Source of the DNA: Marine Group I thaumarchaeote
GTDB taxonomy: Archaea > Thermoproteota > Nitrososphaeria > Nitrososphaerales > Nitrosopumilaceae
Direction of reading: 5' to 3'
Length of the DNA: 64,000 nucleotides
NCBI GenBank assembly: GCA_013390375.1
Contig: JACATA010000002.1
Span: 1-64,000 of the forward strand
Made by a program: the position numbers and the translations under genes. Under the pieces are notes generated by a model. It was given only the letters and a program-made list of their open reading frames with translations, had not been told where the DNA came from and did no database searches. Positions 41,395 to 63,915 of this stretch are shown piece after piece. Every line of letters starts with the position of its first letter. Positions within the stretch are counted from its first letter, which is position 1.

Positions 41395-42324
41395 ATGAAT
41401 GAGTTTTATAAAAAGAACATCATTTCTGTGAGGAATTTAGACAAACAAAAACTAGAACTAATTTTTGACGCCACAGATAAAATCATCGATATGAGTCAGG
41501 ACAAAAGACGTGAGATTGCTAGGGGCAAAACCCTTGGATACTTGTTTTTTGAACCAAGTACTAGAACTAGACTTAGTTTCGAATCTGCCATAGCACTGCT
41601 TGGAGGCACATCTCTTGGAATAGCAGATGCCACATCTTCATCAATACACAAAGGGGAAACACTTGGGGACACTGTCAAAGTAATTTCCAGTTACTGCGAT
41701 GTGCTAGTTTTAAGACATTCCTTAGATGGTTCTAGTAGATTTGCGGCAGAGATATCTAACAAACCTGTTATAAATGCAGGAAGCGGCACGGAAGAACATC
41801 CAACACAAACAATTCAGGACCTTTACACAATAAAGAAAGAAAAGAAGAAGATTGACGGTCTAAAAATAGGAATTGCTGGTGATCTAAAATATGGAAGAAC
41901 CGTTTACTCACTTTTGTATGGTTTGCGTAACTATGACGTAGACTTACATCTTATCTCCCCTGAATCTCTTAGAATTCGTTCTGACTCTACCTATGACATT
42001 AAAAAAGAATTATCATATACAGAATCGTCAAATATTGATGAATATATTGAAGATCTAGATGTGTTATACGTCACAAGAATTCAGAAAGAAAGATTTCCAG
42101 ATGAAGAAGAATATGCCAAAGTTAAAGGCAGCTATGTAATTGGCTCTGATATGGTAAAGAAGATGAAGGATGATGCGATCATATTGCACCCCCTACCACG
42201 CATTGATGAGATCTCTGCCGATGTTGATAATACAAAACAGGCAAAGTACTTTGAGCAGGCAGAGTATGGAAAGTATACCCGTGCTGCACTGCTTGGTCTG
42301 ATTCTAAACGAGAACGGCTTCTGA
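41395..42324 (+). CDS. pyrB: Aspartate carbamoyltransferase catalytic subunit
   Basis: First committed step of pyrimidine synthesis: carbamoyl phosphate plus aspartate to carbamoyl aspartate. The 309 residues have the carbamoyl-phosphate loop FFEPSTRTRLSFE (Ser-Thr-Arg-Thr-Arg at 55-59), the HPTQTIQDL segment and the HPLPR motif. Length is normal. It pairs with the divergently read pyrI. Confidence 0.96.
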   Translation: MNEFYKKNIISVRNLDKQKLELIFDATDKIIDMSQDKRREIARGKTLGYLFFEPSTRTRLSFESAIALLGGTSLGIADATSSSIHKGETLGDTVKVISSYCDVLVLRHSLDGSSRFAAEISNKPVINAGSGTEEHPTQTIQDLYTIKKEKKKIDGLKIGIAGDLKYGRTVYSLLYGLRNYDVDLHLISPESLRIRSDSTYDIKKELSYTESSNIDEYIEDLDVLYVTRIQKERFPDEEEYAKVKGSYVIGSDMVKKMKDDAIILHPLPRIDEISADVDNTKQAKYFEQAEYGKYTRAALLGLILNENGF

Positions 42325-53748: not shown

Positions 53749-54519
53749 ATGTTACCAATAGGTGATGAAAATCCTCATCCACCAGGATTCAAACCAATAC
53801 TTACATACGCATTAATTGCCATCAACGTGATTGTTTTCTTTTTTGAGGTAGCAGTAACTGGACAATTTTTTGATTTTAGTAATCGTCAAGCAATGAATCT
53901 ATTCTTAAACTGGGGTGCAGTACCTGGCTGTGTTACTGGACAAATAAGCGGAATTAACACAGGAGTTGACATCATCAGCTGTCCTGCGATTTCAGAGCTT
54001 ACGTTACTGACCTCTACTTTCATGCACGGAGGTTTGTTGCATCTTGGTGGAAACATGTTGTTTCTTTGGATCTTTGGTGACAATCTTGAAGCAAAGTTTG
54101 GACGAGTAAAATATCTAGGCATCTATCTGTTATGGGGAGTAGGTGCCGGCTTGATTCACATCATGGGTGATACATCAACTGGTATTCCTGCAGTTGGTGC
54201 ATCAGGCGCAATATCTGGTGTGCTAGGAGCTTATCTTGTAATATTTCCACACGCAAAAATTAAGACAGTTTTGATATTTGGATTTTTCATTAGAATGATT
54301 CACATCAAAGCCATGTACTTTCTTCCATTCTGGCTAATTTTTCAAAACCTGCTACCATTTTTCATAGGGGGATTTGGTGTTGCAGGAGGCGGGGTTGCAT
54401 ATCTTGCCCACATCGGTGGCTTCATACTGGGACTTGCGGTTGGATACATATACAAAAAATCTCATGGTTCTCAGTTTACCTATGGGACGCGCTATGGCTA
54501 TAGAGGAGACTACAGATAA
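53749..54519 (+). CDS. Rhomboid-family intramembrane serine protease
   Basis: A 256-residue membrane protease. The catalytic Ser is in GASGAISGVLG and the His in YLAHIGGFILG. The first helix (LTYALIAINVIVFFFEV), the long outer loop with two Cys and the HGGLLHLGGNMLFLWIFGD segment are typical. It cleaves membrane-spanning substrates; the adjacent surface-protein genes are possible substrates, by position only. Confidence 0.92.
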   Translation: MLPIGDENPHPPGFKPILTYALIAINVIVFFFEVAVTGQFFDFSNRQAMNLFLNWGAVPGCVTGQISGINTGVDIISCPAISELTLLTSTFMHGGLLHLGGNMLFLWIFGDNLEAKFGRVKYLGIYLLWGVGAGLIHIMGDTSTGIPAVGASGAISGVLGAYLVIFPHAKIKTVLIFGFFIRMIHIKAMYFLPFWLIFQNLLPFFIGGFGVAGGGVAYLAHIGGFILGLAVGYIYKKSHGSQFTYGTRYGYRGDYR

Positions 54520-54553
54520 CAACCACTAAATTATACATTGCAAAAAAACGTTC

Positions 54554-54730
54554 ATGCCGCTGATTACAGTGTCAATGTATCCTGGCAGAACTCAACAACA
54601 AAAAGATGATTTTGCAAAGGTAGTAACAAAGTCTGCTGCTGAGATTTTAAAGACCAAGGAAGATCAAGTAATTGTGGTCTTTAAAGAGAATCCAAAAGAG
54701 AATTGGTTTTTAGCAGGAAGCCAACTCTAA
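54554..54730 (+). CDS. 4-oxalocrotonate tautomerase-like protein
   Basis: A 58-residue protein that starts MPLITVSMYPGRT. After Met removal the N-terminal Pro is the catalytic base of this superfamily. The rest has the expected helix and strand (DFAKVVTKSAAEIL; QVIVVFKE). The natural substrate is unknown. The gene lies between the rhomboid and nitrilase genes. Confidence 0.8.
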   Translation: MPLITVSMYPGRTQQQKDDFAKVVTKSAAEILKTKEDQVIVVFKENPKENWFLAGSQL

Positions 54731-54764
54731 CTATCTTTTTATTTTGATCAATGTTATGACGCCT

Positions 54765-55574
54765 ATGTCTAAAATTGCAATAGTGCAATTCAAAGCTTCA
54801 ACTGATAAAACAAAAAACCTTCCAAGGATTTTACGATATATCAAACAGGCTGCAAGGAATCATGCAGATCTTTGTGCATTTCCCGAATACATGATGTTTT
54901 TTACGCCTGCATCACAATCTGCTAAACAAGTTGCACAACAAGCTGAGACAATCAATGGTAAATTTGTATCGGCTATATCAGAATGTGCAAGGCAAAATTC
55001 TATAATTGTAGTTGGAACCATGCTAGAAAAAAGTAAGAAAAAAGATAGAGTGTATGATACCTCGTTCGTAGTAAATAAAAGTGGAAAAATTATTGGAAAG
55101 TATAGAAAGATCCATCTTTATGATGCACTTGGATTCAAGGAATCAGCAAAAATGTTGGCTGGAAAAACTATTCCTTTACCCACAAAAACTTCAGTAGGTA
55201 AATTAGGAATGATTATTTGCTATGATCTTAGGTTTCCGGAGTTATCCAGGGCGCTTGCATCATCTGGTAGTGAAATACTAATTGTACCTTCTGCGTGGGT
55301 TAACGGTCCCATGAAGGAGGAACATTGGTTTACATTAAACAAATCACGTGCAATGGAAAATGGGTGTTATGTAATTGCACCTGACCATCTTGGTCATATT
55401 TACACAGGAAGAAGTTTAGCAGTTGATCCTTACGGTAGAATACTTCTTGATATGAAAAAGCGACAAGGAATAGGTTACGTAAACATCTCTATTTCAGTTG
55501 TTAAAAGCATTCGAAAAAAATTACCACTATTAAAAAATCGTAGGACTGACTTGTATTCCAATTTTAGACTTTAG
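54765..55574 (+). CDS. Carbon-nitrogen hydrolase (nitrilase superfamily)
   Basis: A 269-residue enzyme with the Glu-Lys-Cys triad: Glu in CAFPEYMMFF, Lys in GKYRKIHLYD and Cys in GMIICYDLRFPEL. The family includes amidases such as omega-amidase and deaminated-glutathione amidase; the NIT1/NIT2-like pattern is closest. I chose the ATG at 54765 since a TATA-like T/A run lies about 25 nt before it; upstream starts at 54744 and 54756 exist. Its 3' end overlaps the convergent gene by 11 bases. Confidence 0.9.
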   Translation: MSKIAIVQFKASTDKTKNLPRILRYIKQAARNHADLCAFPEYMMFFTPASQSAKQVAQQAETINGKFVSAISECARQNSIIVVGTMLEKSKKKDRVYDTSFVVNKSGKIIGKYRKIHLYDALGFKESAKMLAGKTIPLPTKTSVGKLGMIICYDLRFPELSRALASSGSEILIVPSAWVNGPMKEEHWFTLNKSRAMENGCYVIAPDHLGHIYTGRSLAVDPYGRILLDMKKRQGIGYVNISISVVKSIRKKLPLLKNRRTDLYSNFRL

Positions 55575-56055
55575 TTTTCCTTGATTTACATCTAAAGTTT
55601 GAACATTGCCTAGTCCATTTTTGTTTTCTATTGTATCTGAATATTACAATAGGCCACTTGCAAAGCTCGCATTTTGTTTTTGTTGCACGCAGTCTAGCTT
55701 TTTGTAACAGTGGTGAAGATGCCTTACAGCCGTTATTGTAGTTGGAGCATCCGATAAATCTCTTTTTTGTTATTGGTGATCTTATGATCATTAGTTGTCC
55801 AATCTTACATTGTGGACATTCAACTAGACCACTTTTTGGCGAATTAGTACCTAAAATTATGTACTTTTTCTTTTTTGCAGAATAGGAAAGGTAACCATTT
55901 GAATCCAAATATTGTGCTAGCTCATTTTTCAAAACTTGTATTTTTTTCTTTGTGGGTATTATCACATTACGTGATTTTGACTTTTTTTGTGTAACTTGGG
56001 AAAGCTGATTTTTTTTTTGCAAAACTATTATTATGTAAAACTTTGTCCTTATCAA
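55564..56055 (-). CDS. Protein with topoisomerase-I-type zinc ribbons
   Basis: A 163-residue basic protein. Residues ~25-75 form a Lys-rich region. Then comes a zinc ribbon (ECPQCKIGQLMIIRSPITKK and RFIGCSNYNNGC) like those at the end of bacterial topoisomerase I. A second set of Cys (KCELCKWPI and QCSNFRCKS) follows. It lacks the topoisomerase catalytic domains, so it may bind single-stranded DNA or RNA alone or assist another protein. TTG start, uncertain by about ten codons. Confidence 0.7.
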   Translation of the reverse strand: MIRTKFYIIIVLQKKNQLSQVTQKKSKSRNVIIPTKKKIQVLKNELAQYLDSNGYLSYSAKKKKYIILGTNSPKSGLVECPQCKIGQLMIIRSPITKKRFIGCSNYNNGCKASSPLLQKARLRATKTKCELCKWPIVIFRYNRKQKWTRQCSNFRCKSRKTKV

Positions 56056-56097
56056 AACTTATGAAGAATTTTTATAAGGAATTGGTCAGCGTTTTTT

Positions 56098-57252
56098 ATG
56101 GAAAAAGTTTGTGTTTTAGGTGCTGGAAGCACCAAGTATGGTAAATTAGAAGACAGCATTACTGATATTACTCTTCAAGCATCAGTTGATGCAATTGAAA
56201 GTGCAGGAATAGAATCAAAAGATATCAAAGCTGGTTACATCTCAAATGTTTTTGGTGTCGCAGATAAGCAGGTACATCTAGGACCTGTAGTAATGAGCAA
56301 CCTTGGCATTTCAGACAGACCTTCACTTTCAATAGAATCAGCATGTGGTAGCGGTTCGGTATCATTTAGAGAAGCATACGCAAACGTTGCTGCAGGATTT
56401 TATGATGTGGCACTTGTAGCTGGAGTTGAAAAGGTTACACATACTGGTACAGAGTGGACTACAACTTACTTTTCATATTGTTCAGATTTTTTTTATGAGG
56501 GTCAGTCAGGTGTTTCCTTCCCAGGACTATTTGCATCAATGGCGAGAGCCTACATGAACGAGTTTAAGGCAACGGAAGAAGATTTTGCACAAGTGGCAGT
56601 TAAGAATCATGATAACGGACTGCTAAATCCAAAGGCGCACCTAAGAAAAAAGATCACAGTTGATGATGTAATGAGTTCTGCCGTGGTTGCAAGCCCACTA
56701 AAACTTTATGATTGCTGTCCATTCTCTGATGGTGCTAGCTCGGTAATATTATGCAATGAGAAGTTTGCCAAAGATCATGGTGCTAACTATATTGAAGTTA
56801 TGGGCTCAGGAAGGGGTGGATCTTCTGCTGCACTACAAGGTAGAGAACATCTTACCACAATACCAAGCACAAAGATAGCAGCTGAGGCTGCGTTCAAGAT
56901 GGCAGGAATTACTCCAAAGGATGTTGATTTTGCAGAGGTTCATGATTGCTTTACCATAGCTGAAATTGTTGACATTGAGGATCTTGGCTTCTTTGAAAAG
57001 GGAAAAGGAGTAGAAGCGGTTAGAGAAGGCCAAACCAAACTGAATGGTCAGATTTCAATTAATTCTTCTGGCGGTCTTAAATCAAAGGGACATCCAATTG
57101 GAGCAACTGGTGTAGGTCAAATAGTAGAGGTTTTTGATCAATTAACCGGGAAAGCGGGCGAACGAACAGTAAAGAATGCAAAAATTGGATTGACACAAAA
57201 CTTTGGTGCGACTGGAGCAAGTTGTGCAGTTCATATTTTTCAAAGTGTGTAA
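56098..57252 (+). CDS. Thiolase (acetyl-CoA C-acetyltransferase, archaeal SCP-x-like)
   Basis: A 384-residue thiolase. The acylated Cys is Cys83 in SACGSGSVSF; the HDCFTIAE segment and GHPIGATG carry the other catalytic residues. Together with the DUF35 gene 2 nt downstream it forms the archaeal pair that condenses two acetyl-CoA or cleaves acetoacetyl-CoA. In AOA such thiolases serve isoprenoid synthesis or the last step of the 3-hydroxypropionate/4-hydroxybutyrate cycle; which one is not visible. Confidence 0.92.
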   Translation: MEKVCVLGAGSTKYGKLEDSITDITLQASVDAIESAGIESKDIKAGYISNVFGVADKQVHLGPVVMSNLGISDRPSLSIESACGSGSVSFREAYANVAAGFYDVALVAGVEKVTHTGTEWTTTYFSYCSDFFYEGQSGVSFPGLFASMARAYMNEFKATEEDFAQVAVKNHDNGLLNPKAHLRKKITVDDVMSSAVVASPLKLYDCCPFSDGASSVILCNEKFAKDHGANYIEVMGSGRGGSSAALQGREHLTTIPSTKIAAEAAFKMAGITPKDVDFAEVHDCFTIAEIVDIEDLGFFEKGKGVEAVREGQTKLNGQISINSSGGLKSKGHPIGATGVGQIVEVFDQLTGKAGERTVKNAKIGLTQNFGATGASCAVHIFQSV

Positions 57253-57254
57253 AG

Positions 57255-57620
57255 TTGACTGAAAAAAAAAATTTTATAGAACATGCCAAAGATGGGAAGA
57301 TCCTATCTCACAAGTGTATTAATTGTGGCTACTTGTCTTTAGCTACTGTATATTTTTGTAAAAAATGTGGGAAACGAGGGTTTGATGATTTTGTATTAGA
57401 TGGTCAGGGCAAAGTTGGAACGTATACAATTATGACGGTTCCTCCTACAGGCTTTGAAAAATATACACCATATGCTTGGGTAATCATAAATCTTGATAAC
57501 TCTGATTTGAGAATATCGGGATTTTTACCAAATATACAAAAATCCGGAGATCTTCCGATTGGTGCGGCGGTAAAAGTGGTTGGTTTTGATGATCGTGGCA
57601 TAGTTTTGAAGAAGCTGTAA
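57255..57620 (+). CDS. DUF35 OB-fold zinc protein, thiolase partner
   Basis: A 121-residue protein from the TTG at 57255. The rubredoxin-like zinc site has CINC and CKKC, followed by an OB fold (GKVGTYTIMTVPPTGF; AWVIINLDNSDLRISGFL). DUF35 proteins bridge thiolase and HMG-CoA synthase in archaea and pass acetoacetyl-CoA between them. It is 2 nt from the thiolase stop. The sequence upstream of this start overlaps the thiolase and is not needed. Confidence 0.9.
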   Translation: MTEKKNFIEHAKDGKILSHKCINCGYLSLATVYFCKKCGKRGFDDFVLDGQGKVGTYTIMTVPPTGFEKYTPYAWVIINLDNSDLRISGFLPNIQKSGDLPIGAAVKVVGFDDRGIVLKKL

Positions 57621-57689: not shown

Positions 57690-57851
57690 ATGTCTGTTGA
57701 TATAACCTGTGGAAAGTGTGGTGAAAAAATTTCTACAATGCAGATGCTCAAATCTGTAAAAGACGTTATGAAACACTATAATAATAAATGTCCATCTTGT
57801 GGGCAAGTGCTTTCAGTAACTGAGTTTTTGTTGGATGTAGAAAAAAAGTAA
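57690..57851 (+). CDS. Zinc-ribbon microprotein (53 aa)
   Basis: ATG-started frame with CGKC at about residue 7 and CPSC at about residue 34, separated by a helix (MLKSVKDVMKHYNNK). The pattern is a zinc ribbon of the small thaumarchaeal type. It stands alone between the thiolase pair and the NrdD-like gene. Confidence 0.6.
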   Translation: MSVDITCGKCGEKISTMQMLKSVKDVMKHYNNKCPSCGQVLSVTEFLLDVEKK

Positions 57852-57953
57852 CCAAATTTTTTTCTTTTAAACACAAGTTTTATTTTTTGACATTAAAATT
57901 AAAATTTGATCAGGTTACAAACCTTATTTACTTCAATTTTTTTAATAGTTACA

Positions 57954-60143
57954 TTGGGGAGTAGCAAAAAATTAGACCCAGATGAAGAGATCCCTCTTGA
58001 ATCTGGTGTAGACATAGATAATATGGGTGATCTTGATGATCTTGAAGTTGATGATGCTGATGAACTTAGTTTAGACGAGGAGCCACCAGGCAGCCAACTC
58101 CTTCAATCCACTTCCAAACGGGTAAGAATGATCTTTTCTGTTATGGCAAGCCCAAATAGAATTGATATATTAAGAATCTTGAACTCAAAAGGACCACTTA
58201 CTTATTCTGAACTAAAATCTCTTGCAGGATTCAAATCAAAGAAAGAAAGTGGCAAATTTGCATATCATTTAAGAAAATTGCTAAGACAATCACTTGTAGC
58301 GCTAAACAAGTCAGAACGAAGATATACAATTACAAATCTGGGTAAACTTGTCTTAAGCCTTGCAAGGCAGATTGAAGAAAGATCAATTATAGAAAGCGGC
58401 AAGATGTATGTAAGAACATCACATGACTCAATTGAGGAGTTTAATACTCAGAAAATAATCCAGTCACTGGTTCGTGAGGCAGGCTTACCACTAGAACTGG
58501 CACAAAAAATAACTGAAGAGGTTGAAAATCGTATTTATAAATATCAGACTGCATATCTAACAGGTTCGCTCATCCGTGAACTGGTTAATTCAGTACTCTT
58601 AGAACATGGCTACGAAGAATATAGGCACAAACTAGCCAGAGTTGGACTCCCTATATTTGAAGTTCAAGAGATGATATCAAACGCAGAAAATGTAGATAAC
58701 GGTGTAGAGGGATTGTTATTCAAGACGGGCCAAATTGTATTTGCTGAGCATCTTCTCACAAGCACTCTTCCAAAAGATATGGCAGACGCGCATCTCTCAG
58801 GTGACCTTCATATTACTAATCTTGGATTATGGTCAATTTTGCCAGATACTATATTCATAAATGTAAAGGCGTTGATCGAAGACGGCATAGATCTCAAAGG
58901 GAAATCCCTTAGCGTTTGTAGAATTCCATCAGTTAAGACACTGAATGATCTATCTTCTGCATTATCTATGATAATAGCGCTCATCTCAAAGGAAGCTTCT
59001 CAGGAAGTAGTGGTGGATGATCTGATACCATTACTCTCAAGATATTCAAAAGATTTATCTGAACTTGAACGTAAACTTGTTGATTCCTTTACAACATCTT
59101 CTATAGTTGTAGGCTATAACAATATGTCAACAGTGGTCTCATTTAGGATCCCACTGGGAACAGAGCAAAAAATTGTAAAAACTGTGCTTTCTGCCTACAA
59201 AACATATGCAAAGCTTACACCAATTCCAAGGATAGGACTTGTTATTGATTATGAGAAGGGAAGGATAACAGATGTGTCAGAGATATTATCTAAAATTATT
59301 ACTCTTGGAGGCAAAGTAATGTTTGCGAAACATAAAACCTCCCAGAAAGGGATCACCTGTCCAAAAAATTCAACTTCTACTGTATTACATTTGGGTTCAT
59401 TGTCTATCAATCTGCCCCGTCTGGCATTTGAATCAAACAAAGACGAAACTTATTTTCGAGCAAGACTTGCATTGTTAATGAAACCTGCTTTAGATTCTAT
59501 GGCTTTACGCAAGAAAAGCATCTCCAATCTTATCAGGCTGGGGGTTAATCCAATCCTTGCTGCTAACACACAGTACATGCAGCGTAGCACAGTCTCTTTG
59601 GTGATCAACCTAGTAGGTTTACAGAATGCAGTTTATGGTATATTGGGATTCAAAGATGACAAAAAGGGACAAGAGATCCTACACAAGGTAATTGAAACCG
59701 CTGTAGATATTGCATCAAAGAAAGATAAGGATCTTGGAATTAATGTTATCGTATGTATGACTGAGAGTGATGGATCTGAAAGATTTATTGCGCTAGATGG
59801 TAGAAAGTACGGAAAAGGTTCTGTCCAACAAATCACTGACACTGAAACTTATTCACAGGGAATTGTATTTGACATTGATAAGCTATCAAGTCTCACTGGA
59901 AAAAGTGCAGAGATCACAGAATGTAACAAGATTGGTAAAATTCTCAATGGTAGTTTTTTGATACAGATTACGATACCAAAAGGCACTAAGGCGGGTGATA
60001 TCAAAAAGGTCATTGAGAAAGGAGCTAGCATCACCAGCTCATTCAAGCCTGTTATGCAAGCACCAATCTGTGGAAACTGTGGATTCAAAGATGAAAAACT
60101 TGGAGACAAATGTCCTGCCTGTAAGTCTACATATATTATATAG
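57954..60143 (+). CDS. Winged-helix/ATP-cone/NrdD-like protein, probably a regulator
   Basis: A ~729-residue protein. After an acidic disordered N-terminus there is an ArsR-like winged helix (~60-140: MIFSVMASPNRIDILRILNS). An ATP-cone (~150-235: VRTSHDSIEEFNTQKIIQSL) comes next, then a long region with the look of the anaerobic ribonucleotide reductase barrel. The end has two CxxC pairs (CGNCGF, CPAC), like the zinc site of NrdD, but stops at Thr-Tyr-Ile-Ile with no glycyl-radical loop. It is just upstream of nrdJ. I take the TTG at 57954; a TTG at 57906 would add a hydrophobic stub. Confidence 0.75.
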   Translation: MGSSKKLDPDEEIPLESGVDIDNMGDLDDLEVDDADELSLDEEPPGSQLLQSTSKRVRMIFSVMASPNRIDILRILNSKGPLTYSELKSLAGFKSKKESGKFAYHLRKLLRQSLVALNKSERRYTITNLGKLVLSLARQIEERSIIESGKMYVRTSHDSIEEFNTQKIIQSLVREAGLPLELAQKITEEVENRIYKYQTAYLTGSLIRELVNSVLLEHGYEEYRHKLARVGLPIFEVQEMISNAENVDNGVEGLLFKTGQIVFAEHLLTSTLPKDMADAHLSGDLHITNLGLWSILPDTIFINVKALIEDGIDLKGKSLSVCRIPSVKTLNDLSSALSMIIALISKEASQEVVVDDLIPLLSRYSKDLSELERKLVDSFTTSSIVVGYNNMSTVVSFRIPLGTEQKIVKTVLSAYKTYAKLTPIPRIGLVIDYEKGRITDVSEILSKIITLGGKVMFAKHKTSQKGITCPKNSTSTVLHLGSLSINLPRLAFESNKDETYFRARLALLMKPALDSMALRKKSISNLIRLGVNPILAANTQYMQRSTVSLVINLVGLQNAVYGILGFKDDKKGQEILHKVIETAVDIASKKDKDLGINVIVCMTESDGSERFIALDGRKYGKGSVQQITDTETYSQGIVFDIDKLSSLTGKSAEITECNKIGKILNGSFLIQITIPKGTKAGDIKKVIEKGASITSSFKPVMQAPICGNCGFKDEKLGDKCPACKSTYII

Positions 60144-60298
60144 ATTATCTGGTTTTCTTATCAAACAAACCGATTCCAATAATTGTCAAGTTTTTGAAAT
60201 ATGGTTAGAAAAATTGAGCTAAATTAGATCTTAGATCAAAAACTCTTTTGCAGAGAAGTTATATTCTCAACAGCCCTCCAATTTGATGGGGAGACATA

Positions 60299-62956
60299 TT
60301 GGTAGACAGTAAATCGCAGATAGAGCATTCTATTTCTCAAGTTAGGAAGAGAGATGGATCAGTTTCAGACTTTAACAGAGACAAAATATTAAATGCTATA
60401 TACAGAGCTTTTTCAGCATCAAACAAGCCGGATAAGGAACTTGCGATCAAACTCTCCGATGCCGTTTTAATAAAATTAACTGAGCATGGATTTTCAGTAA
60501 ATAATCCACCAAGCGTTGAATCCATTCAGGATTTAGTCGAATCAACTCTTATCGATCAAGGTCATAGCGATATTGCCAAGAGCTATATCCTCTATCGTCA
60601 TGAACGCAGAAAGATTAGAGAAGAAAAGATGAAGGTCTTAAATACTAAAAAGCTAGATTCGGTAGGAAAATCTTTTGATATTAATTGTTTAAGGGTTCTG
60701 GCTTCCCGTTATCTTTTCCGTGATAACAAGAACGAAATCATTGAAAAGCCATCCGAATTATTTGAAAGGGTTGCCGTCCTAGTTAGCATTTCTGACCTAA
60801 TAAGAGACAATTATCTTTTCACCAAAGATGGTGGTATGTCACAAAATATAGAGGAAGCAGCAGAATATCTCAAAAAACTGGATGGTTTTTCCTACAAATT
60901 CAAGATAGGCAGCTATTATCTCAACAAATGGCACTTTAGATGTCTCATAAACTGCTATGTTGAGCTGGCAAAGCAAGGAATGATGAAAGTGTCATTCAAG
61001 GAACTCTTAACCATGCTTGCTTCCAAAAAATTTGATGCATATGCCGACAGGATCTCAGAATACTATGAATTAATGATATCTCAAGACTTTTTGCCAAATT
61101 CACCCACCATGATGAATGCAGGTGGGCGTTTGGGTCAACTTTCTGCCTGCTTTGTTTTAGGGATGCCTGATGATATGCAATCAATAATGAAAACAACCTC
61201 TGACGCTGCCTTGATTTTCAAGTCTGGTGGAGGTGTAGGAATCAACTATTCTGATCTGCGTGATGAGGGAGAGATTGTAGCCTCTACTTCTGGAGTAGCA
61301 TCAGGGCCAGTATCTTTTATGAATATAATCAATACTGTGACTGAAGTAGTGAAACAGGGTGGCAAAAGACGTGGCGCAAATATGGGAATTATGGAAGTTT
61401 GGCATCCAGATATAGAGAAATTCATTACAAACAAGACGGAGCCTGGAGTCTTAGAAAACTTCAATGTTAGTGTTGGTGTCTGGAAGGACTTTTGGGACGT
61501 ACTTGTAAATTCTGGGGATGGAAAATATACACTACGTTCTCCAAAAGATAACTCATCAGCTGGGGAAATAAATGCACATCACTTGATTGATTTGATAGCT
61601 CAATCAGCTTGGAAGAGTGCAGAACCGGGATTAATCTTCTTTGATAACATTAACAAATACAATGTGTTTGCCAAAGCACGTGGTGGTCCACTCCGCGCAA
61701 CTAATCCATGTGGTGAGCAAAGCCTTTACCCATACGAATCTTGTAACTTGGGCTCAATCAATTTGGCAAATCTTGTAAAAAGGATGGCCGATGGTCAGTA
61801 TGAGTTTGACTGGCAAAGATATGAAGAAATTATTATAAAAACCACAAGATACTTGGACAACATTATAGATGTAAATCTATATCCTGTGCCAGAAATAGAT
61901 GTTGCATCAAAGGAGTCTCGCAGGATAGGACTAGGTGTCATGGGAGTAGCGGATCTATTATACAAACTGCGAATTCCATACAACTCAAAGGAAGGCTATG
62001 ATTTCCAATTAAAACTGGCTGAGGCATTAACGTATTATTCTATGGAAGAAAGTGTTGCACTTGCAAAGAGCAGGGGCGAGTTCCCACTATGTTCTAAAAC
62101 AGAATATCCAGAGGGGAAGATTCCAGTTTCAGGATATTATGAAAAACCAAAGGAAGAACAATATTATGATTGGGATGCTCTTATTGAAAAGATCCAAAAG
62201 TATGGAATTAGGAATGTACTGACTACGACAGTAGCCCCTACTGGTACACTATCTATGCTAGCTGACTGTTCTAATGGAATGGAACCAAACTTTGCACTAG
62301 TTTTTGAAAAGAGAGTTACAGTAGGCAGATTCTTTTACACCAACAAAATATTTGAACAGGTCTTAAAAGAAAACAATCTGTATAGTGACGAACTACTTGC
62401 AAAGGTAGCAGATAACTATGGTTCTGCTAAAGGAATACCTGAAATTCCGGATTGGATTCAAAACATATTTGTCACTGCAATGGACATACACTGGTCTGAT
62501 CATCTTTTGGCACAATCTGTATGGCAGGATTGGATTTCAAATGCAATTGCCAAGACAATTAACATGCCCAACGATGTATCTGTTGAGGATGTTAAGGCTT
62601 CGTATCTTTTGGCACATGAGATGGGATTAAAAGGAATAACAGTTTATAGAGATGGTTCGAGACACAAACAAGTCTTGCACATGACAGGTGAAAACTCAGT
62701 AAAGAGATTTGAGGTAAAACCAAGTGATTATGTTGTAAGTTATATCTCAAGTCATATTAAAAACGAGTACATCAAATCTCAAATTAATAATGCACTAGCA
62801 GCTATCAAGCTGGAAGATTCGCATAAGATAACACAAACTACTGTGGAAGTAGAAAAGGAAGAAACTTTGTGCCCCACATGCAAAAACAAGCTTATTTTTG
62901 CTGAAGGATGTAGCCTCTGCATAGACTGTGGGTATAGTGGCTGTACGTCAGGATAA
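60299..62956 (+). CDS. nrdJ: Adenosylcobalamin-dependent (class II) ribonucleotide reductase
   Basis: Converts ribonucleotides to deoxyribonucleotides without oxygen, using B12. The 885 residues start with an ATP-cone (about 12-105), then the catalytic barrel: the start NSPTMMNAGGRLGQ, the active NPCGEQSLYPYESCN segment with the radical Cys, and a second-site APTGTLSMLADC. The C-terminal Cys motif (CPTCKNKL and SLCIDCGYSGC) renews the active-site thiols. TTG start. Length fits. It lies downstream of the NrdD-like gene by 155 nt. Confidence 0.96.
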   Translation: MVDSKSQIEHSISQVRKRDGSVSDFNRDKILNAIYRAFSASNKPDKELAIKLSDAVLIKLTEHGFSVNNPPSVESIQDLVESTLIDQGHSDIAKSYILYRHERRKIREEKMKVLNTKKLDSVGKSFDINCLRVLASRYLFRDNKNEIIEKPSELFERVAVLVSISDLIRDNYLFTKDGGMSQNIEEAAEYLKKLDGFSYKFKIGSYYLNKWHFRCLINCYVELAKQGMMKVSFKELLTMLASKKFDAYADRISEYYELMISQDFLPNSPTMMNAGGRLGQLSACFVLGMPDDMQSIMKTTSDAALIFKSGGGVGINYSDLRDEGEIVASTSGVASGPVSFMNIINTVTEVVKQGGKRRGANMGIMEVWHPDIEKFITNKTEPGVLENFNVSVGVWKDFWDVLVNSGDGKYTLRSPKDNSSAGEINAHHLIDLIAQSAWKSAEPGLIFFDNINKYNVFAKARGGPLRATNPCGEQSLYPYESCNLGSINLANLVKRMADGQYEFDWQRYEEIIIKTTRYLDNIIDVNLYPVPEIDVASKESRRIGLGVMGVADLLYKLRIPYNSKEGYDFQLKLAEALTYYSMEESVALAKSRGEFPLCSKTEYPEGKIPVSGYYEKPKEEQYYDWDALIEKIQKYGIRNVLTTTVAPTGTLSMLADCSNGMEPNFALVFEKRVTVGRFFYTNKIFEQVLKENNLYSDELLAKVADNYGSAKGIPEIPDWIQNIFVTAMDIHWSDHLLAQSVWQDWISNAIAKTINMPNDVSVEDVKASYLLAHEMGLKGITVYRDGSRHKQVLHMTGENSVKRFEVKPSDYVVSYISSHIKNEYIKSQINNALAAIKLEDSHKITQTTVEVEKEETLCPTCKNKLIFAEGCSLCIDCGYSGCTSG

Positions 62957-62980: not shown

Positions 62981-63002
62981 AGCAAAAAAATTTGCAACCT
63001 AT

Positions 63003-63076
63003 GCGGTCATAGTATAGCCTGGTTAGTATTCGGGGTTTCCAACCCTGTGACGCGGGTTCGAATCCCGCTGACCGCA
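63003..63076 (+). tRNA. tRNA-Gly (anticodon UCC)
   Basis: Acceptor GCGGTCA (63003-63009) pairs with TGACCGC (63069-63075), discriminator A at 63076. The anticodon stem CGGGG/CCCTG carries the loop TTTCCAA, giving anticodon TCC (UCC, Gly). The T arm GCGGG-TTCGAAT-CCCGC is perfect. No intron; CCA is not encoded. Confidence 0.95.
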
Positions 63077-63129
63077 TCTTTTTAATTCAATTCGATCCAA
63101 TTTTTTAGGGGCATAACCCATGTAAAATT

Positions 63130-63432
63130 ATGAAGCACGCAAAAAGAAAAATTGCACTTGAAAGGATGCATGTATTGATTAACAGCGCAATATCAAACGC
63201 TAGATTAAATCCTGATTTAGCTCAAAAGCAGGCCAGCTTAGCGAGAAGAATAAGCACTCATCATAGAATAAAGATGCCTTATGAATTAAGAATAAATTTT
63301 TGTAAACAATGTAAAAATTTTATTGCACCAGGAATTAATTCAAGAATAAGACTTGGGCGAACTCCTCTCAAGGCAATTCGAATAACATGCAACTTTTGTG
63401 AACATACATATCGCAAAGTGATAGCTCAATGA
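63130..63432 (+). CDS. rnp4: Ribonuclease P protein component 4 (Rpp21/Rpr2)
   Basis: One of the archaeal RNase P proteins, 100 residues. The N-terminal helices (AKRKIALERMHVLINSAI and LAQKQASLARRISTHHRIK) and the zinc ribbon with FCKQC and CNFCEH, plus the basic loop RIRLGRTPLKAIRI, are typical of Rpp21/Rpr2. It helps RNase P RNA mature tRNA 5' ends; a tRNA gene lies 54 nt upstream. It forms an operon with rps19e. Confidence 0.92.
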   Translation: MKHAKRKIALERMHVLINSAISNARLNPDLAQKQASLARRISTHHRIKMPYELRINFCKQCKNFIAPGINSRIRLGRTPLKAIRITCNFCEHTYRKVIAQ

Positions 63433-63462
63433 TTTATAAGACGATTTACAAGTTTGACATCA

Positions 63463-63915
63463 ATGGCTAAAGTCTATGATGTACCAGCTGATATCTTAAT
63501 CAACAGACTCTCTGAAATTTTAAAAAATGAAGACATTCCTGCTCCAGACTGGGCGCCATTTGTAAAGACTGGTACACATGCAGACAAACCTCCACAAAAT
63601 TCAGGATGGTGGCATGTAAGGTGTGCCTCAATCTTGAGAAAAATTTACCTTCACGGTCCAATCTCAGTTAACGAATTACGTTCCGTGTATGGTGGTGGCA
63701 GACCAGTTGGTTATGGTGCTGCTCACCACAAAGATGCCAGTGGCGCAATTATAAGAAATGCAATTCATGGGTTAGAAAAACTTGGTTTGGTTACAAAAAT
63801 TGAGAAAAAGGGTCGAATGTTAACAAAACAAGGTACGAAAAAATTAGATGTATTAGCCACTGAAATACTAAAAGAAATGATCACAGAAGAACCACGTTTG
63901 AGCATTTACAGATAG
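63463..63915 (+). CDS. rps19e: 30S ribosomal protein S19e
   Basis: Archaeal/eukaryotic small-subunit protein, 150 residues. Motifs DWAPFVKTGTHADKPPQ, WWHVRCASILRKIYL and YGGGRPVGYGAAHHKDASG are typical. I chose the ATG at 63463 rather than a TTG three codons upstream. It is followed by the PDCD5-like gene, a common archaeal order. Confidence 0.96.
   Translation: MAKVYDVPADILINRLSEILKNEDIPAPDWAPFVKTGTHADKPPQNSGWWHVRCASILRKIYLHGPISVNELRSVYGGGRPVGYGAAHHKDASGAIIRNAIHGLEKLGLVTKIEKKGRMLTKQGTKKLDVLATEILKEMITEEPRLSIYR

Follow-up and report, generated by a model that had tools for sequence, protein, structure and literature searches.

The window, the stretch of 64,000 nucleotides from a Marine Group I thaumarchaeote contig that was analysed here, carries a gene for an unusual winged-helix protein directly 5' of nrdJ, which encodes a class II ribonucleotide reductase (RNR). 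The features of this locus are as follows.

57906-60143, + strand: open reading frame that holds the winged-helix gene (ORF list)
57923-57931, + strand: TATA-like box CTTATTTAC of the winged-helix gene, with GTTACAAAC before it (read by eye)
57954-60143, + strand: gene for the winged-helix, ATP-cone and pseudo-NrdD protein, 729 aa, TTG start (Pfam, AlphaFold2, Foldseek)
58113-58403, + strand: winged helix, residues 54-150, ArsR-like (DUF7347/HTH_20) (Pfam)
58404-58652, + strand: ATP-cone, residues 151-233 (Pfam)
58653-60053, + strand: NrdD-like body, residues 234-700, without the C79-equivalent Cys and without the thiyl-radical Cys (alignment, profile, Foldseek)
60069-60122, + strand: NrdD-type zinc site, C706-C709...C720-C723 (translation, alignment)
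60144-60298, + strand: spacer between the winged-helix gene and nrdJ, putative regulatory region (sequence reading, comparison with relatives)
60186-60197: TCAAGTTTTTGA within the spacer
60227-60237: two GATC within the spacer
About 60258-60266: TATA-like AGTTATATT within the spacer
About 8 nt 5' of the nrdJ start: GGGGAG within the spacer
60299-62956, + strand: nrdJ, class II (B12-dependent) RNR with its own ATP-cone (TIGR02504)

The TTG at 57954 appears to be the better start for the winged-helix gene because it lies approximately 30 nt past a TATA-like CTTATTTAC that matches the conserved promoter of relatives, an arrangement that is near-leaderless. The first TTG of the frame (57906) was dropped as it lies upstream of this conserved promoter box. 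An element CAYAAGTCTTAWTTA is found 5' of the gene in 62/110 loci of relatives and did not occur in the other 1.9 Mb of strand sequence. A CACAAGT-TATA element picked out by eye as common to the promoters of the winged-helix gene and nrdJ did not hold up, with 0/109 nrdJ spacers containing it. Immediately 5' of the winged-helix gene a 53-aa zinc-ribbon protein with a CxxC...CxxC pattern is encoded (57690-57851, +), and by eye this ORF also precedes the gene in many Nitrosopumilaceae-like loci. Further upstream (53749-57620) are genes for Rhomboid-like, nitrilase, topoisomerase-zinc-ribbon, thiolase and OB-fold proteins, which lie near the winged-helix gene in 65-87 of 91 relative loci. Beyond nrdJ are a tRNA-Gly(TCC) followed by the gene for an RNase P Rpr2-type subunit (63002-63432) and then ribosomal protein S19e (63454-63915).

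All domains of the protein matched Pfam models above curated cut-offs, with E-values of ~5.6e-22 for NRDD, 2e-8 for the ATP-cone and 3e-10 and 1e-7 for DUF7347 and HTH_20 in the winged-helix segment. DUF7347 is matched by 43/45 family members and a profile search retrieved ArsR, HlyU and NmtR structures, so that on profile evidence the winged-helix identity of the N-terminal domain is not in doubt; in the window this segment contains no Cys. The residues before it are acidic and of low confidence in the AlphaFold2 model, which was built from an alignment of 45 relatives and has a mean pLDDT of 83 and a pTM of 0.71 overall. When the model was searched with Foldseek the top 36 PDB matches were all class III NrdD, with E-values down to 1e-20 and TM-scores of ~0.5-0.64 as normalised by target length, and a profile search against structures found NrdD at E=4.5e-37. 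The body is thus, as modelled, a class III RNR fold. Within the ATP-cone the basic positions R154, K/R167, R208, R224 and R229 are invariant or nearly so across the family, are mostly common to genuine NrdDs too, and by analogy probably hold the nucleotide phosphates (PMC11226230). An earlier note, made by reading the sequence, had proposed a winged helix, an ATP-cone, an NrdD-like body and zinc Cys pairs, and all four were confirmed by Pfam, alignment and AlphaFold2/Foldseek, the predicted structure containing an NrdD-like body when compared with NrdD.

In order to follow the catalytic residues, family members were aligned with genuine NrdDs, many of them encoded in the same genomes. The C79-equivalent Cys and the thiyl-radical Cys pair are each present in 0/42 family rows, and the radical Gly position holds a Gly in just one of the 42, while all 13 genuine NrdDs that were tabulated keep their catalytic residues. 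The glycyl loop is absent from the window protein and from all ammonia-oxidiser rows; in the window the stop codon falls 6 residues past the last zinc Cys (C723), which leaves no glycyl-radical loop, as the earlier note had claimed, and no intact radical Gly or Cys site. The protein scores 80 bits against TIGR02487 (NrdD) where the cut-off is 326. NrdG2 exceeded its cut-off in 11/28 genomes searched, all 11 of which carry a genuine NrdD, and no NrdG over cut-off was found in the remaining 17, which include ammonia oxidisers; nor was a genuine NrdD detected in the ammonia oxidisers tested. An active class III RNR was consequently dropped, as the protein retains neither radical Gly nor catalytic Cys and NrdG is missing. 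It is likewise highly improbable that the protein is still an enzyme of another kind, a reductase, glycyl-radical or otherwise, that works by unusual chemistry: the zinc cysteines and the fold have been preserved in most members, as such a reading would expect, but the C79 equivalent, the thiyl Cys and the radical Gly are all missing and the ammonia oxidisers have no NrdG activase.

A maximum-likelihood tree divides the 42 family rows from 24 genuine NrdDs by a single branch with support of 100/99, and a single origin of the winged-helix family is therefore the simplest account of these sequences, although the inner order of the tree is unsure owing to several long branches. Two members, that of a same-genus relative (G108, locus L037) and that of G082 (L041), end without the zinc Cys tail. 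In G108 nrdJ still lies directly 3', and the zinc site seems to be dispensable there.

The family is found across the Thermoproteota, beyond the ammonia oxidisers, with matches in 218/300 sampled genomes of the phylum. It is present in every ammonia-oxidiser family sampled (f1-f3, taken as ammonia oxidisers from named relatives such as Nitrosopumilus, Nitrosarchaeum and Nitrosotalea), and in nearly each ammonia oxidiser it is single copy; the closest named record to the window protein is from a Marine Group I thaumarchaeote (86%). A contig scan returned 80 loci of ammonia-oxidiser type, two of them in contigs labelled as bacterial bins. These two (L080 and L131) carry both the winged-helix gene and nrdJ in records titled Phycisphaerales or Proteobacteria MAG and are likely misbinned.

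Comparison of the ammonia-oxidiser loci shows the winged helix to be by far the most constrained part of the protein. Its 97 residues are identical in 86/91 loci (116/125 over every fetched locus, including some repeats), counts that are not independent because of shared ancestry, and the rest of the protein is ~60% alike within f1 and 32-36% towards f3. Between pairs of loci with an identical winged-helix protein the third codon positions have a median identity of only ~59%, and the constraint therefore acts on the protein. By comparison, the best 97-residue stretches reach a mean of 91% in nrdJ, where no loci are identical, 88% in the upstream thiolase and 78% in S19e. A decaying pseudogene or a remnant retained by chance, which the loss of catalytic residues and the missing Zn tail of G108 might otherwise bring to mind, can hardly be reconciled with a frame that remains open, in conserved synteny, throughout the ammonia-oxidiser family and is under strong purifying selection, and the identical winged helix over diverged third codon positions refutes it for the N-terminal half.

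Such constraint over the whole surface of a 97-residue domain may point to many targets or to a protein partner, and it was counted against a local regulator, as a domain frozen in this way is seldom needed to regulate one or two sites. One reading built on this is that the protein acts globally, as a regulator or a chromosome-bound factor with numerous sites, and links the supply of nucleotides to replication, transcription or the nucleoid, nrdJ being one target of many. A winged helix held more tightly than the catalytic barrel of the RNR or S19e would fit such a factor, as would the presence of one copy in almost all sampled ammonia oxidisers, but the sole cis element found (described below) is near nrdJ-specific and the gene neighbours indicate nucleotide synthesis, and we consider this reading unlikely.

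The neighbour at 60299-62956 scores 725 bits against TIGR02504 (cut-off 400) and by this measure its product is a genuine class II NrdJ, in agreement with the earlier note. As to whether the family always lies beside nrdJ, this holds for the ammonia oxidisers, where nrdJ is immediately 3' on the same strand in 77/77 named loci with enough sequence (gap 145-598 nt; 155 bp in the window), but elsewhere the neighbour is nrdD, nrdA/J, pyrB or neither an RNR gene nor pyrB. The place by RNR genes is conserved. Among 51 genomes from 25 families surveyed beyond the ammonia oxidisers, pyrB (aspartate carbamoyltransferase) adjoins the winged-helix gene convergently in 18 and an RNR gene adjoins it in 7, namely a genuine nrdD in 6 and an nrdA/J-type gene in G019. 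One or the other is nearby in 27 (11 families); neither stands beside it in the other 24, which was counted against a regulatory reading. So was the orientation of pyrB, which is convergent and never divergent in 22/22 loci and therefore shares no promoter with the winged-helix gene there. Short forms in f11 and f16 are divergent to a carbamoyltransferase that scores below the PyrB cut-off and that we read as ornithine-type. In two loci of anaerobic relatives with a genuine nrdD (L047:3727-4050 and L060:3185-3490) a small CxxC glutaredoxin-like gene lies between the winged-helix gene and nrdD and is a candidate RNR reductant. The pyrB of the window itself (41413-42306, +) is 16 kb 5' of the winged-helix gene; many anaerobes and the basal ammonia oxidisers have pyrB right beside the locus.

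Nucleotide synthesis is the only link among nrdJ, nrdD, nrdA/J and pyrB. The order winged-helix gene-nrdD-pyrB occurs in G059, G276, G106 and G142 and the order winged-helix gene-nrdJ-pyrB in the basal ammonia oxidisers G197 and G215, and from these gene orders the locus looks old, with the class of RNR exchanged within it. The neighbourhoods also bear on a rival reading in which the protein serves NrdJ (or NrdD) as an accessory subunit with an allosteric role, a dead RNR that relays nucleotide signals within mixed oligomers and uses the winged helix for protein contacts. Strict adjacency to nrdJ, the NrdD-like fold and an nrdD neighbour in three other families all speak for this, but NrdJ already has an ATP-cone of its own, such a subunit would need a class II partner in certain lineages but a class III partner elsewhere, members of the family are also found by pyrB with no RNR alongside, and the body, the would-be interface, evolves fast (~60%) while the winged helix is frozen. 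An accessory subunit is the weaker explanation because the partner varies in RNR class and is in some genomes pyrB, and because it is the DNA-binding head that is frozen; we regard this explanation as quite improbable.

The spacers 5' of nrdJ hold candidate sites. A palindrome, TATGAA-N-TTCATA, is present in 27/68 nrdJ spacers of relatives with long loci and in none of the 666 kb elsewhere in the same loci. Across 21 genomes it occurs exactly 28 times, 15 of these being the nrdJ spacer (15/21 genomes) and 13 lying at other sites in ~35 Mb, and a reversed-pattern control was far rarer. Its end lies a median of 53 nt 5' of the TATA-like box and 97 nt 5' of nrdJ, and in archaea a site ~53 nt 5' of the TATA box is more typical of an activator than of a repressor. 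The palindrome is absent from the window's own spacer and from the spacers of some relatives; where it is present the winged-helix protein may bind it, judging by the neighbourhood. GATC is about five times as dense in nrdJ spacers as in other gaps (13.3/kb vs 2.7/kb). A further element, CGATCATCG, occurs in 49/109 nrdJ spacers and is rare elsewhere, and in some ammonia oxidisers, e.g. L005 and L006, the spacer shows it together with strong GATC clusters. An Rfam scan found no RNA element in the nrdJ spacer, the only match being the tRNA-Gly at 63003. In the pyrB-linked lineage (22 loci) a search for a cis element common to the promoters of the winged-helix gene and pyrB gave only TATA/BRE-like conservation.

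Taken on the sequence evidence, the protein is probably (a probability of about 0.62) a one-component, nucleotide-sensing transcription regulator derived from a dead class III RNR. We favour this because the winged helix is the most constrained part, because the family has pyrB neighbours with no adjacent RNR and because the spacers of relatives contain dedicated cis elements. The earlier note had left the choice between a regulator and an RNR accessory subunit open, and its proposal is supported with these same observations tipping the balance towards the regulator. We infer DNA binding, the identity of the ligand and the target site. The winged helix would bind DNA and the ATP-cone would sense ATP/dATP or other nucleotides, possibly along with the former specificity site for dNTPs in the NrdD-like dimer. 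Bound ligand would alter the dimer or oligomer and so change its grip on DNA, as in NrdR, and this would in turn set the expression of nrdJ, nrdD or pyrB, with activation and repression both possible. In ammonia oxidisers the chief local target would be the nrdJ directly 3', probably with the regulator's own promoter also, and in anaerobic relatives nrdD and pyrB are the likely targets. A bolder history, which we put forward as doubtful, is that a whole RNR became a transcription factor once, early in the Thermoproteota, reading nucleotide pools by RNR allostery, and that in ammonia oxidisers it outlived its parent enzyme, gained control of the class II nrdJ and settled into the role of a fixed hub, its winged helix of histone-like constancy, tying the supply of nucleotides to some conserved core process, for example replication.

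The nearest functional parallel is NrdR (TIGR00244), the bacterial RNR repressor, which likewise joins a DNA-binding-type domain to an ATP-cone and is encoded beside RNR genes, with nucleotide sensing presumed for both. NrdR has an N-terminal zinc ribbon, no RNR body and ~150 aa, in contrast to the ArsR-like winged helix, dead NrdD body and 729 aa of the present protein. In Streptomyces coelicolor nrdR and nrdJ form a gene pair, nrdRJ, and tight DNA binding by NrdR requires dATP together with ATP or ADP (PMC9110341). With NrdD (TIGR02487, PF13597) the protein has in common its fold, the order of ATP-cone then body and the zinc site, but it lacks the radical Gly and catalytic Cys, has gained a winged helix and forms its own branch. 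The winged-helix domain is held in common with ArsR-type and DUF7347 archaeal regulators. Known one-component ArsR proteins are metal or ligand sensors of ~100 aa, whereas here the sensor would be the ATP-cone and RNR body. The use of an enzyme fold as a ligand sensor fused to a DNA-binding head recalls the ROK/NagC regulators, which derive from sugar kinases, and MocR, which derives from aminotransferases. Enzyme-derived regulators are thus already known as a kind, but we know of none built from RNR, and our searches of the open-licence literature turned up neither a fusion of winged helix and NrdD body nor a regulator made from an entire RNR.

Few archaea are said to carry NrdR (PMC9110341), and RNRdb has 6 archaeal entries for it (PMC2795772). 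In our searches 17/18 genomes, including that of the window and the other ammonia oxidisers tested, had no match to TIGR00244. An NrdR elsewhere in the window's own genome was accordingly dropped, and just two ATP-cones were found in that genome, both at the locus described here. The sole NrdR (G184) lies 5' of a genuine nrdD, and the winged-helix protein of that genome is by pyrB instead. Beyond what the earlier note had envisaged, the family is phylum-wide, has nrdD and pyrB as further partners and belongs to genomes nearly all of which lack NrdR.

How archaea without NrdR control their dNTP supply is a question for which this protein is one candidate answer, and one that is single copy throughout the globally abundant ammonia-oxidising archaea and has a fixed place by RNR. 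If the reading is correct it would be a clear example of an enzyme that became a regulator, with the parent enzyme still encoded alongside in some anaerobic relatives and exchanged for another class of RNR in the ammonia oxidisers. On present sequence evidence the archaeal switch that has been missing, and that adjusts nucleotide supply in ammonia oxidisers, is most likely this protein.
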